This document shows, one piece after another, positions 2,452 through 39,111 of a stretch of 39,111 bases of DNA; position 1 is the first letter of the stretch, and each line of letters begins with the position of its first letter. The notes beneath the pieces are model-generated. The model made no database searches and had not been told where the DNA came from. It saw nothing but the letters and a program-made list of their open reading frames with translations. The stretch spans positions 1 to 39,111 of the IMG/VR virus record IMGVR_UViG_3300037847_003074. One strand, 5' to 3'. A program made the translations under genes and the position numbers. Source of the stretch: a virus.

Positions 2452-5400
2452 ATGGGAGCATCATATACAAGACAATCATCTTACACCACTGGCGATACAA
2501 TTCAGGCCGCTGATACTAACGATGAATTTGACCAACTATTAGCAGCATTTAATGCTACATCTGGACACAGTCACGATGGTACAGAGGGTGAAGGCGGGCC
2601 TATTACTGGTCTAATAAGTAATACACTTACATTTGGAGCAGGGTCTGCAGGAACTGATATTACAATTACATTTGATGGTGAAACAAATGATGGTATATTG
2701 AAATGGATGGAAGACGAAGATTACTTTGAGTTTCCTGATGATATTCTTATATCGTCTAATGAAAAACTACAATTTCGTGACACTGCTATTTACATTAACT
2801 CTAGTACAGATGGGCAACTAGACATTGTATCTGACACTTCAGTACAGGTTGTAAGTGCAACTTTTGGAGTGGACGTAAGTGGTGACATTACATTAGATGC
2901 AGGCGGAGCAGATGTAGTGCTAAAAGATGACGGTACACAATATGCTTCTTTTACTAATAGTTCAGGTAATTTGGTTATAAAATCAGGTTCTACTACAGCT
3001 ATGACTTTTAGTGGAGCTAACGTAACTTTTGCAGGAACAGTCACTATAGGTAGTGCTGGTATATCAGAGGCTGAATTAGAAATATTAGATGGGGCAACTG
3101 TAACAACTGCAGAGTTAAACATACTTGATGGAGCAACTGTAACTACAACTGAATTAAATATTATGGATGGTAATACAAGTGCATCATCTACAACCATAGT
3201 AGATGCTGACCGAATTGTACTTAATGATGATGGTACAATGAAACAAGTTGCTGTAACAGATTTAACCACGTACATAACATCAAACATAACCTCTGTTGGT
3301 GCTTTAAACAGTGGGTCTATAACTTCAGGTTTTGGAACAATAGACACAGGCTCATCTACAATTACAACTACAGGTTTAATAACAGGTGGTTCATTAGATA
3401 TAGATGATGTTGTTATAAATGGAAGCACTATCGGTCACACAGATGACACAGATTTAATAACTGTAGCCAATGGTGTTGTTACAGTTGCAGGTGAAATATC
3501 TGTAACTACTCTTGATATAGGCGGCACTAACGTAACAGCAACTGCTACGGAACTAAACTTATTAGATGGTGTATCAGGATTAGTGCAGGCAGATTTTACT
3601 AAATTAGCTGCAGTAGATGCAACTGCTACTGAATTAAACATCATGGATGGTGATACAAGTGCATCATCTATAACTTTAGTAGACGCTGATAGAGTTGTTA
3701 TTAATGATAATGGAACTATGGCACAAGTAGCTCTTAGTTCTTTGGCAACTTACATGGAAGGGGCGATTGATACTGGTTCTAATATTACAACCGTTGGTGC
3801 TCTAAATGCAGGAAGTATAACTTCTGGTTTTGGTAACATTGATAACGGTGCATCTAATATTACATCAGGTGGATTATTAAAACTTGATGTAGATGCTGAT
3901 GCTGATGATGCAACAGGAGACAGTGCAACTGGTAGATTAACCATAGGTGCTGGAGAAGACCTTAACTTATATCATGGTGGAACTCATTCTTATATAGTAA
4001 ATGACACTGGTGATTTAGTAATAGATACCGAGGGCGACGTAATATTAGACGCTAATGGTGCAGATGTAGTGTTAAAAGATAATGGTTCACAATACGGAGC
4101 TTTGACTAACTCTTCTGGAAACTTAATTATAAAATCTGGGTCAACTACAGCGTTAACTTTTGATGGTGCTAATGTTACCATAGCAGGAGATTTAACTGTA
4201 TCTGGTGATGATATCACTATGGGTACAAACACTTCTGGTAACTTGTTAATAGCAGATGGCACAAACTTTAACAGTGTAGCAGTAAGTAGTTTGTCGGAAA
4301 TATCTACAGTTGCAAATGATGATGTATTTCTTGCTGTAGATACATCAGGAGGTGGGTTAAAGAAAATTACTAGAAGTGCTATAGTTTCTGGTCTTGCTAC
4401 ATCTGCAGCTCTATCAAATGTATCCGAAGATTCCACCCCTCAGTTAGGCGGAGACTTAGATGTAAACGGCAACGGCATTGTATCGACATCTAATGGTAAT
4501 ATAGCTATTACGCCAAATGGCAGTGGAGTGGTAAGATTAGATGGTAATGTAGATATTCAAAGTGGTACTATTGATTTAAAAAACTCAGGTTCAAGGTCTA
4601 AAATTAATTTTTACTGTGAATCAGGTAATGCTCACGCACAAGCACTACAGGCCGCACCACACTCAGAAGCTGCTTCAAATACACTAACCTTACCGAGCAC
4701 AGGCGGGGATGTTGATTTAGTTTCAACAGCTTCAACTGCTACTCTTACAAACAAAACATTTGGGGATAACGTAAGTTTTGGCGATAACAATATTACTAAT
4801 GTTGGTGATATTGCACTTGATTCTATTAGTGCAGACGGTACAGATATAAATGTAGCTGTATCAGATAACTCCGCAACTGCTCTTACAATCAAACAAGGTT
4901 CTGATGCCTACCTTATTATAGATACTGCAGACTCAAGTGAATCTGTATCTATAGGCACAGGCGTATCAGGAACAGCTATAACCTTGGGGCATAGCACATC
5001 AGAGGTTACGGTGTCAGACAATCTTACAGTAACAGGTAACCTTACAGTATCAGGCACAACTACAACTGTTGATACCACAAACACAACTATTAAAGACAAT
5101 TTATTAGAATTAAATAGTGGAGCTTCTAGTAACTCTAATGACGCAGGTATTATTATTCAACGTGGTTCTACTGGTAATGATGCTTTAATTATATGGGATG
5201 AGTCTGAAGACAAGTGGGCTTTAGGTACAACTACTTCTTCAGCAGGAGATACTGGGAATCTTAATATGACCACAGGTACACTTGTAGCTAATCTTGAAGG
5301 AAATGTTACAGGTACATTACAGACTGCGGCCCAGACTAATATTACATCTTTAGGAACTCTTACAGCTCTGACGGTAGATGATGTAGCTGTGGATGGTAAA

Positions 5401-9381: not shown

Positions 9382-9857
9382 TGTTTGACCCTATTACGAT
9401 TGGTGCAGCTTTAACCACGGCAAGCACGGCATTTGCAGGCTTAAAGCGAGCCTTTCAAGCAGGGCGAGATATAGAGTCTATGACAGGAGATTTATCAAGG
9501 TGGATGAGTGCCGTATCAGATGTTGAACAAAAAGAAAAGTCAGCAAAAAATCCACCTATCTTTCGTAAGATATTTGGTTCAGTAGAACAAGAAGCTTTAG
9601 AGGCTTTTGCGGCTAAGAAAAAACTAGAAGAACAAAGATATGAACTTAAAACCTTTATTCAATTCTCTCACGGACACAAAGCTTGGGATGAATTATTGGC
9701 AATGGAGGGGAAGATTCGTAAAGCTAGGCAAGACCAGCTTTATCGTCAACAAGAAATAAAAGAGCGTATAATTGAAGGCATATTTATTTTCATACTACTG
9801 GCAACAATTGTTGGATTTATATGGCTCGTCTGGTATCTCAAATCAATACAGGAGTAA
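9381..9857 (+). CDS. Tail-anchored membrane protein, unknown
   Basis: A 158-residue protein with an amphipathic N-terminus (MFDPITIGAALTTASTAFAG), a charged helical middle (residues about 40-130), and one strong membrane segment close to the C-terminus (IFIFILLATIVGFIWLVWYL, about 134-153). It would be anchored with most of its mass in the cytoplasm. Translation is probably coupled to the preceding gene by the TAATG overlap, since no SD is evident. The next gene is also a single-span membrane protein. Together they could belong to a holin/spanin-type lysis set or to the DNA-ejection apparatus. No motif decides between these. Confidence 0.6.
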   Translation: MFDPITIGAALTTASTAFAGLKRAFQAGRDIESMTGDLSRWMSAVSDVEQKEKSAKNPPIFRKIFGSVEQEALEAFAAKKKLEEQRYELKTFIQFSHGHKAWDELLAMEGKIRKARQDQLYRQQEIKERIIEGIFIFILLATIVGFIWLVWYLKSIQE

Positions 9858-37019: not shown

Positions 37020-37115
37020 AGTCACAGAGGCGTTTTATCTTTGAAATCAATGATTTATACCTTTTTTGTAAAAAAATGTGAATGGCTATATACCTGCCTA
37101 TTGTACCTCCAGCCG

Positions 37116-37168
37116 TGACAGTACCATTAACATGTAATGATAGTTTGCGAAGCAAGCCTTATGATAGT
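37116..37168 (+). repeat. Three-site array A (TGAYAGT, pitch 22 + 24)
   Basis: TGACAGTA at 37116, TGATAGT at 37138 and TGATAGT at 37162, all plus orientation, start-to-start 22 and 24 bases. Between sites 2 and 3 is a small hairpin TTGC-GAA-GCAA. The array lies in the 222-base gap between the terminator of the 379-residue gene and the small-gene promoter. Confidence 0.75.
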
Positions 37169-37191
37169 TTTTTTTGAAAAAATTTTGGCAT

Positions 37192-37225
37192 AAAAAAAAG
37201 CCCCCCAGAATTTAATCTGGAGGGC
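37192..37225 (-). terminator. Rho-independent terminator of the 379-residue gene
   Basis: Minus-strand stem GCCCTCCAGA/TCTGGGGGGC (10 pairs, one G-U), loop TTAAAT, followed by eight T residues. It starts 17 bases after the stop codon at 37243. Confidence 0.9.
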
Positions 37226-37242
37226 TAATTGAAAAAATTAAA

Positions 37243-38382
37243 TTATTTTTTTCTAATATTTGCTATTTGTTGAAATGGATTTGAGTTTTCCAAACTGCTT
37301 ATTTCTTCAGCAATTTCCTTAACTTCCTTTTTTTCCTCAACTGCTAATTTCATATTTTTATCATCAGTTTTTGGAGTTTCCTTTTTCTCAACTTCAGTTT
37401 TTTCAACTTCAGTTTTTGAAGCTTCGTCAAGTTCATCAGTAGCTTGGTCAACTGGTGTTCCTTCGTCAATTTTAGTTTGATGAAGTAACGCATCAGCATC
37501 AAATTTCAACCTGGCTTTTTCCATTTGGATTTTAATATGGTCTAAAACTTCAAATAGACTAGTAGTCATTAATTTCTTTTCTTTTAATGTTGCTGTGTCG
37601 TCTATTGCATCTCTACCCAACTTACCATTTGGAAGATGAATATTTGCTTTCATATATGAAACCAAAGCTGTGGCACATTTTAAAGCTTCGCTATAACTTG
37701 AGACACTATCCAGATTTAAAGAATTGTCCGCTCCTTTCTTATTTACTTTAAAGCCTGTTGGGGTGTCCTTATCGTTTAATTCTTTCATATTATAAATAAC
37801 TTCATATATCTGGGATACATGGGTTTCAGTTGCATATTTAAGAGAATCACTAAATCTTTCAAAGCTTCCGTCTTTGTCTTTGTAGTGGCTGAACGGTAAG
37901 CTATTTGGTCGGAACAATGCTCTTATATGGTGCTTATTACTTGGTTTAAAATCCGCGTCTGTTTGCCCCAAAAAATAAGCTCTGCTTTGGGTCGTATGAT
38001 AACCGATTGTTAAGTGTCCTGACATTACAAGCCTGATACCTTTGACGGTAAATCCTTTAACTCTGTTTAAGGTTTTCTTTATATCTGCATCAACTGTACC
38101 GTCTGCGTCTGTCCACAAGGTTTCAAATTGTGTTTGCACAATTCCTTCTAGTTCTGCCTGACTAGGTACGTTCTCCAGATAATCATTATCATTTTTAAAA
38201 CCTGCTTGAATTAAAGTAATTCCTGCAATTACTGAGCTATGTAATTGGGTTTCTCTTGTTCTGTCGGTTTTTACCAATGCTTTACCTATACTAAGAAGTT
38301 CGGCTCTGGCATCTTCAACTGACATATCAACTTGCTTGTTTATATTGTCTACAACTTTAAATGTTACGTTTTCTTTAGTCAT
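37243..38382 (-). CDS. 379-residue protein of unknown function at the right end
   Basis: A 379-residue, largely helical, charged protein from the ATG at 38382 (SD AAAGGA, 7 bases upstream); the frame continues to 38466 without support. Residues about 120-185 contain GIRLVMSGHLTIGYHTTQSR and HHIRALFRPNSLPFSHYKDK. The last about 90 residues are Lys/Glu-rich with short duplications (TEVEKTEVEKKET). No domain is recognised. It is the only gene between its own terminator and the array-rich non-coding right end, a single-gene unit. By position it could be an early take-over protein or the factor that binds the adjacent repeats; this is inference only. Confidence 0.6.
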   Translation of the reverse strand: MTKENVTFKVVDNINKQVDMSVEDARAELLSIGKALVKTDRTRETQLHSSVIAGITLIQAGFKNDNDYLENVPSQAELEGIVQTQFETLWTDADGTVDADIKKTLNRVKGFTVKGIRLVMSGHLTIGYHTTQSRAYFLGQTDADFKPSNKHHIRALFRPNSLPFSHYKDKDGSFERFSDSLKYATETHVSQIYEVIYNMKELNDKDTPTGFKVNKKGADNSLNLDSVSSYSEALKCATALVSYMKANIHLPNGKLGRDAIDDTATLKEKKLMTTSLFEVLDHIKIQMEKARLKFDADALLHQTKIDEGTPVDQATDELDEASKTEVEKTEVEKKETPKTDDKNMKLAVEEKKEVKEIAEEISSLENSNPFQQIANIRKK

Positions 38383-38513
38383 TTGTGTTTCCTTTCTATT
38401 TAAACACGATTTACACGGCCTTATGACCGATAAGACTAGTATTACATAGGTAAAAAGATATAGCAACTCTATGAGCCTTAAAACGGCTTTAAAAGGCTAT
38501 TTCCTAGCTAAAA

Positions 38514-38566
38514 TGACAGTAACAAGCCAAACTGCTGATAGTAAAAAAAAATTTTTTTTTGATAGT
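38514..38566 (+). repeat. Three-site array B (TGAYAGT, pitch 22 + 24)
   Basis: TGACAGTA at 38514, TGATAGT at 38536 and TGATAGT at 38560, plus orientation, spacing 22 and 24. Sites 2 and 3 are separated by an A-tract running directly into a T-tract. Array B is the left arm of a roughly 60-base inverted repeat with array C. Confidence 0.8.
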
Positions 38567-38772
38567 ATTTAAGGTTTTTTGCTGGATAAAAACTTATTAA
38601 ATAATTTAAAAAATGGTTTAGCTGCTAGCTGGATAATCTGTTTTTATACAAAAACTAGACCAAACCTTTCACGCGCTCCAGCTGCAACCGATTTTTTTTG
38701 AACCAGAATTAAACCAAATATATACTTTTTTGCCTGATACAACTTCAACTTCTGAACCAGAACTATACCAAT

Positions 38773-38825
38773 ACTATCAAAAAAAAATTTTCTTTTACTA
38801 TCATACTATTGCTTTGCTACTGTCA
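38773..38825 (-). repeat. Three-site array C (TGAYAGT, pitch 22 + 24), inverted
   Basis: On the minus strand TGACAGTA starts at 38825, TGATAGT at 38803 and TGATAGT at 38779: spacing 22 and 24 again. The A/T tract between sites 2 and 3 is kept with one interruption on each half. It faces array B across about 206 bases. Confidence 0.8.
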
Positions 38826-38848
38826 TTTTTAATTTTTTGTACAAATTA

Positions 38849-39089
38849 GATAAGTTATTGATTTTATTACACTTGTTTATTTATTAGGCGTTATCGTACA
38901 CGAACGCATAGTACCTGCCTATATTTTAGGCAATACGTAAACTTTCAAGATGGTTTAACGCACGACCAAAAAAAGTTGAACGCTAAATTATTATTTTAGT
39001 TTAACGCTAAACTATGTGTGACAAAATACACACACAATTTGAAATGCCAGGAGTAAAACACTAGCTTGATAACCTATTGATTTTATTAC
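38849..39089 (+). repeat. 22-base direct repeat flanking array D
   Basis: GATAAGT then TATTGATTTTATTAC (38849-38870) recurs as GATAACC plus the same 15 bases (39068-39089), with only the two bases after GATAA differing. The copies are 219 bases apart and bracket the TTKAACGC array. Confidence 0.65.
38954..39008 (+). repeat. Three-site array D (TTKAACGC, pitch 22 + 24)
   Basis: TTTAACGCA at 38954, TTGAACGCT at 38976 and TTTAACGCT at 39000, spacing 22 and 24. The word differs from arrays A-C but the geometry is identical. Another AACGC (38903) and its reverse GCGTT (38888) lie upstream. Confidence 0.75.
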
Positions 39090-39111
39090 GTTTTTTCTAC
39101 TAGCTGTTAAT

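Follow-up and report, generated by a model that had tools for sequence, protein, structure and literature searches.

A clustered palindrome beside the late genes of marine podoviruses, possibly an operator array

Layout of the control region

The window, by which we mean the whole stretch of DNA analysed, is the 39,111-bp linear viral record IMGVR_UViG_3300037847_003074. Its DNA polymerase is nearest to those of Pelagibacter phage HTVC033P (47%) and other HMO-2011-type podoviruses; PMC8528129 describes this type and related podoviruses as dominant among marine phages. From position 1 the tail genes point rightward, and from about 38.4 kb the replication genes point leftward. The 28 window open reading frames (ORFs) scanned included no terminase, portal or capsid protein and, because these are lacking and HTVC033P measures 53 kb, some 14 kb appear to be absent, probably a quarter or so of the genome, with the contig stopping within the control region. 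The first late gene and the terminase probably lie past 39111. A 90% relative, L005, terminates before this region.

The right end of the window lies inside a divergent noncoding control region with the following features.

37116–37168, plus strand: third array of three TGAYAGT words, downstream of the early ORF
37243–38382, minus strand: first ORF of the leftward (early) arm, adjoining the control region; family alignment A6 with 10 relatives
38514–38566, plus strand: three TGAYAGT words spaced 22 and 24 bp, the neighbouring array of the other word
38773–38825, minus strand: three TGAYAGT words, inverted, within the 60-bp inverted repeat 38510–38569 / 38770–38829
38849–38877, no strand: left copy of a 29-bp repeat (TTATTGATTTTATTAC), repeat family D2
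38909–38942, plus strand: conserved block TAGTACCTGCCTA..TAGGCAATACGTAAAC directly left of the array, aligning with L107
38952–38967, plus strand: palindrome site 1, GGTTTAACGCACGACC, left half intact and right half lost; rank 8, 4.5 bits
38974–38989, plus strand: palindrome site 2, AGTTGAACGCTAAATT, decayed; rank 2 of 39,096, 11.9 bits
38998–39013, plus strand: palindrome site 3, AGTTTAACGCTAAACT, with T and A flanks, near-perfect; rank 1 of 39,096, 24.0 bits
39068–39096, no strand: right copy of the 29-bp repeat (family D2), with 83% identity to the left one

The early ORF probably starts at ATG 38382 (MTKENV), where its family alignment begins, rather than at TTG 38466, so that the ORF 37243–38466 would be over-called; with this most likely start, the noncoding part is 38383–39111. 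A pattern search with the early ORF gave no relatives in the viral collection or among phage isolates. Promoter-like sites in 37100–39111 are not in excess (9, against 7.3 expected from shuffling).

The two copies of the 29-bp repeat bracket the array. Their core, TATTGWTTTTATTA, occurs once in L107 and twice in CRP-2, and the left copy matches, on the minus strand, the IHF-type consensus WATCAANNNNTTR. IHF bending was considered and set aside: both flanking repeats fit the consensus, but the L107 copy does not. By eye, CTGCCTA/TAGGCA-like words in other relatives resemble the conserved block at 38909–38942.

The preliminary description placed three words, TTTAACGC at 38954, TTGAACGC at 38976 and TTTAACGC again at 39000, at spacings of 22 and 24 bp, and these are exactly where it put them. 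The three words are not a chance occurrence. TTKAACGC is found five times in the window against 1.39 expected, the other two (11777 and 12585) being inside long open frames. Three sets of 8-mer triplets (up to one mismatch, any spacing of 18–30 bp) occur in 38383–39111, the other two being the TGAYAGT triplets at 38514 and, inverted, at 38772; dinucleotide shuffles gave a mean of 0.04 sets, reached three sets in 2 of 400 cases and never produced the 22/24 pattern.

What the preliminary description missed is that TTKAACGC is only the left half of a palindrome of 16–18 bp, TAGTTTAACGYTAAACTA; the site at 38998 reads AGTTTA-ACGC-TAAACT, and its 16-mer AGTTTAACGCTAAACT recurs identically at 2244 of L015. 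The sites were ranked with a matrix made from relatives only, the three window sites being left out by design. Site 1 of L107 (AGTTTAACGCACAACC at 1240), which aligns with window site 1, has the same unusual right half (GCACRACC). The window array has probably decayed in part, leaving a single strong site and two that are weaker. The further AACGC and GCGTT words described just upstream do exist (38888, minus; 38903, plus), but they are not kept in the aligned L107 and fall outside the 12 top-scoring sites of the palindrome matrix, and they are probably not part of the array. The halves of the palindrome could also pair as RNA; we rejected an RNA hairpin, as T/G versus C/A variants on the late strand go in either direction and the pairing is broken at window site 2 (by eye).

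Arrays in other phages

Arrays in other phages were collected by several routes. An alignment of the replication primase (599 relatives, 80 kept) led to L010 and L015, both of which reach the homologous region. A scan of the viral collection for triples of GTTTAACG returned 82 stretches that were then filtered for the palindrome, most of them being other things, namely in-frame-looking 33+33 repeats or a GTTTAATGAT-type 21+21 repeat; the filter also removed L094 and L158 (21-bp repeats of the GTTTAATGAT type), and L125 was restored, its sites being palindromic on inspection by eye and the first-late-gene family described below being present in it. A scan for pairs gave 10 stretches, three of them new, of which two were used and one, L293 (a 30-bp-spaced pair on a 434-kb contig), was not. 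BLAST of the array DNA against 50,697 phage records identified two cultured carriers, Roseobacter phages CRP-13 and CRP-9. In CRP-13, which infects Roseobacter FZCC0023, the array occupies 54671–54749 of the record.

Besides the window, this gave 57 sites in 17 arrays from 16 records, with two to seven copies each, nearly always in one cluster. The site matrix is symmetric and, symmetrised over the 57 sites, reads TAGTTTAACGTTAAACTA. Sites were listed at up to five mismatches, and nine weak ones were excluded from the matrix and the spacings (L015 447; L125 5139 and 5434; L134 11983; L136 1234 and 1268; L156 3188; L160 218; CRP-9 9554); including them would bring in a handful of irregular spacings (19, 35, 63 and 91 among them). 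The nearest relative, L107, aligns through the array and keeps the flanking block, with the array expanded to seven sites. When 18 whole records were scanned at up to two mismatches, all 15 array records had sites, 14 of them in a single cluster; the L015 contig had two clusters flanking the early ORF and one lone site, the window its best site only, HTVC033P two scattered single sites and the L010 contig none.

In all 13 measurable cases the array precedes the first late-arm or terminase gene by 0.3–0.7 kb: 328–675 bp from the first late-arm gene in CRP-13, CRP-9, L107, L150, L125 and the L015 contig, 323–562 bp from the large terminase gene (TerL) in L131, L136, L160 and L292, and 574–667 bp from the small terminase gene (TerS) in L124, L154 and L294. 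Outside this count are L118, in which the contig stops within TerL, and L134 and L156, near whose arrays no terminase was identified. By eye, a sigma70-like promoter (TTGACT/TTGACA, 17 bp, TATTAT/TAAATT) follows the array by about 45 bp in L124 and L294, directed toward TerS–TerL.

Clustering of 851 ORFs yielded a family of 72–102 amino acids that is the first late-arm gene in CRP-13, CRP-9 and the contigs of L015, L107 and L150. Its profile also finds L125 and array-less phages including HMO-2011 and CRP-3, and tblastn adds CRP-1, -2, -207, -345 and -603. The family (L333 1928–2146, L328 8805–9059 and relatives) is a conserved first late-arm gene across HMO-2011-type phages; because it also occurs in array-less phages, it marks the place and is not singled out as the binder by co-occurrence. 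Separately, many HMO-2011-type phages have a conserved G/C-rich core, GGGCCAC..CCCCC followed by TACGTATA and CAGATYAGG-like words, in the interval from the array to the first late gene (L107 about 1415–1437, L125 about 5300–5325, L015 about 410–440, L328 about 9585–9615; also L252 and others). It is possibly a packaging or initiation element.

The control regions of seven isolates (CRP-1, -2, -207, -345, -603, HMO-2011 and HTVC033P) and of L010, L079, L175, L184, L200, L207, L252, L255, L262 and L277 hold no GTTTAACG array, that is, no two sites with up to three mismatches within 60 bp. Another palindrome, TTTGTGATCACAAA or a close variant, is present in that region in four of the isolates: CRP-603 four times (L354 1605–1715), CRP-1 twice (L355 1420–1495), CRP-345 twice (L356 1395–1471) and CRP-2 once (L353 1812). 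Both palindrome words are present in CRP-13 and L150, where TTTGTGATCACAAA is at L328 9779–9855 and L150 3537–3612, respectively.

Site spacing and the neighbouring TGAYAGT arrays

Across the relatives, the GTTTAACG arrays provide 40 spacings, of which 10 are 21–24 bp, 28 are 28–34 bp, one is 41 bp and one is 58 bp; none falls at 25–27 or 35–40 bp. Sites are thus spaced by about two or three helical turns with half-turns avoided, and the 22+24 of the window belongs to the two-turn class. The evidence for phasing is this two-peaked histogram and not a circular test at fixed period, because the latter, with one vector per array, did not single out 10.5 bp (R of 0.58–0.67 at all periods from 8.5 to 13).

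The preliminary description proposed that a second, unrelated word is arrayed in the same control region and that the 22+24 geometry common to both words is itself functional. The first part is borne out, and the second word's array is conserved in relatives. L107 aligns through the array, with its seven sites. The spacing is not fixed at 22+24, and the exact geometry as a functional feature is not supported, with 10 of the 40 spacings in relatives at 21–24 bp and 28 at 28–34 bp. A scan of the viral collection for exactly 22+24 recovered no TTKAACGC stretch and, for TGAYAGT, one (L004) that is seemingly unrelated. A TGAYAGT triple scan returned at least 120 stretches, and in L107, L015, L010, L184, L252, L175, L200, L207, L255, L262 and L277 the TGAYAGT spacings range over 12–32 bp. 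They vary independently of the palindrome (22,22,22,22,24,30 for the palindrome versus 26,28,12,24 for TGAYAGT in L107; 34 and 29,32 versus 28,25,27 and 29,23 in L015), so that the 22+24 common to both words is particular to the window.

The TGAYAGT arrays have an arrangement of their own. The two arms of the 60-bp inverted repeat in the window are 85% complementary, each with a TGAYAGT triplet, and they enclose a 22-bp unit repeated three times at exact 54-bp steps (38642, 38696, 38750). TGAYAGT clusters lie on both sides of the early ORF in L010 (59–111 and 1259–1319), L015 (635–721 and 2271–2329) and the window (37116–37168 and 38514–38825), and L010 and L015 differ in how this ORF is oriented with respect to the remaining genome. 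The clusters may mark a movable or invertible unit.

What the array may do

Because other marine phages cluster the word just ahead of their late genes, the array probably offers a control protein a series of docking sites. The specific reading that we favour, and hold tentatively, is a cooperative operator array for a phage-specific dimeric protein, placed toward the late arm within the divergent control region. It is favoured because the sites are palindromes, are phased and lie at a near-constant distance from late or terminase genes, with the sigma70-like promoter following them in L124 and L294. As operators would be, the sites are repeated palindromes confined to one regulatory region (14 of 15 records) and in phase with the helix (38 of 40 spacings). 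From the palindrome and its conservation, position, clustering and spacing classes, we infer dimer binding, cooperativity and a transcriptional role. Each palindrome of 16–18 bp (TAGTTTAACGYTAAACTA) would bind one dimer of a helix-turn-helix-like protein; dimers two or three turns apart would sit on roughly the same face of the DNA, where they could bind cooperatively; and the array, a few hundred bases before the first late or terminase gene, would most likely switch the late arm on or off. Counting against an operator, no binding protein was found, the array is near the GC-skew minimum, which suits an origin too, promoter-like sites are not in excess in 37100–39111, the arrays of L134 and L156 adjoin no identified terminase, and of the window's three sites two match the palindrome poorly.

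The binder has been sought among the shared proteins. No protein cluster is common to all array phages, and the most widespread, DNA polymerase, also occurs in array-less HTVC033P; of the paralogous binder pair that had been suggested for the two words, no sign was found. Neither the first-late-gene family nor the early ORF family could be linked to the array as its binder: structure models of the two (pLDDT 70, and pLDDT 76 with pTM 0.62, respectively) had no PDB match at E ≤ 0.001, and PDB sequence searches found nothing.

The serious rival is a replication origin, which we consider unlikely but well ahead of the other alternatives to the operator array: a phage initiator would bind the palindromes as iterons and open nearby AT-rich DNA, as lambda O does at ori-lambda. 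The GC-skew minimum is 258, 282 and 288 bp from the array in CRP-13, CRP-9 and G008 (1.2–1.5 kb in G003 and G011), but gene direction flips at the same place and skew is therefore confounded with transcription. Tandem sites beside an AT-rich element, as in a lambda-type iteron origin, are seen, local GC being below genome GC in all five array genomes, and DNA polymerase A is the gene most widely common to array phages; yet HTVC033P, HMO-2011 and five other HMO-2011-type isolates share the control region without the array, array phages carry HMO-2011-type and Cobavirus-type replication modules alike, and no initiator was found. At ori-lambda, four 18-bp iterons with short spacers are joined to an AT-rich stretch, according to PMC3349717; on that account the array is similar in its tandem sites of about 18 bp adjoining AT-rich DNA, and differs in lying outside any initiator gene, in its larger and variable spacing and in that no O-like protein is seen. 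Improbable, to our mind, is a cosB-like packaging site at which the small terminase subunit would bind repeats to start packaging. The array is 0.3–0.7 kb from TerS or TerL in L124, L154, L294, L131, L136, L160 and L292, and a run of at least five G or C follows it by 12–84 bp in 9 of 15 arrays; the run is absent within 100 bp in the other six, including the window, whose contig ends after 98 bp. In CRP-13 and CRP-9, terS is about 5 kb away. TerS or TerS-like proteins of three groups are unrelated by BLAST, and the TerS of the L107 contig is 42.5% identical to that of array-less HTVC033P against 41.8% to that of array-bearing CRP-13; site specificity does not follow TerS here, because TerS similarity does not follow the presence of the array. 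The R sites of lambda cosB are likewise three repeats before the terminase genes, whereas the present array is palindromic and TerS does not track it.

Less probable again is that the phages borrow a site that a regulator or nucleoid protein of the host binds. The same word does occur in phages with little gene content in common, and pairs of such words turn up in certain bacteria (33 stretches, the majority Enterobacteriaceae and Enterococcus relatives). In 240 genomes of the class of Aestuariispira, a single alphaproteobacterial class sampled for the exact word only, GTTTAACGTTAAAC did not recur as a host regulon would: it was present in two genomes, one of them the centre genome chosen for having the word, against three for the reversed control. 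CRP-1 and CRP-2, moreover, infect the same strain as CRP-9 and CRP-13, yet have no array. We give very little credence to arm sites for an integrase or immunity operators of a prophage repressor. The array has IHF-type words on its flanks, but the match is not retained in L107; an integrase is present in all HMO-2011-type isolates according to PMC8528129, but among 11 array records G008 alone gave a Phage_integrase hit. The complete genomes CRP-9 and CRP-13 gave none, and array-less HMO-2011, CRP-2, CRP-3 and CRP-603 each did. The attP arm-type version is largely refuted. A parS centromere is not supported: as evidence of a ParB-family CTPase, ParB_N scored over its cut-off in none of 17 records, some of them fragments, with controls positive in 10 of 14. 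Bacterial parS, TGTTTCACGTGAAACA, agrees with GTTTAACGTTAAAC at 12 of 14 inner positions and has the central CG palindrome in common.

Returning to the operator array, the second palindrome TTTGTGATCACAAA in the same control region of array-less relatives is as expected of exchangeable operators. An alternative palindrome in the equivalent place is also the best support for the idea in the preliminary description that unrelated words fill one architecture, across phages and not by fixed geometry. The array word precedes three terminase sets that are unrelated by BLAST and accompany differing replication modules. A further proposal, which we offer as speculation, is that the array serves marine podoviruses as a portable control element, its word and a phage-encoded binder being exchanged as a unit that sets which phages can interfere with each other in a shared cell.

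Among the papers listed by a literature search, none dealt with gene-expression timing or replication start in HMO-2011-type and related podoviruses. In that search, of a collection with few subscription journals, GTTTAACGTTAAAC and TTTAACGTTAAA appeared as strings in no paper, and TGTGATCACA with phage returned only seemingly unrelated papers. As both the word and its location are defined and two carriers, CRP-9 and CRP-13, are in culture, the control region is directly testable.

Among known systems, the clustered phage operators of the lambda OR/OL type are among the closest comparisons for the array. The present arrays differ in their longer spacing, in having up to seven sites, in that no repressor gene was identified and in that an integrase is absent from most array records; what they share is a set of three palindromic sites, some two to three turns from one another, next to gene arms that diverge.
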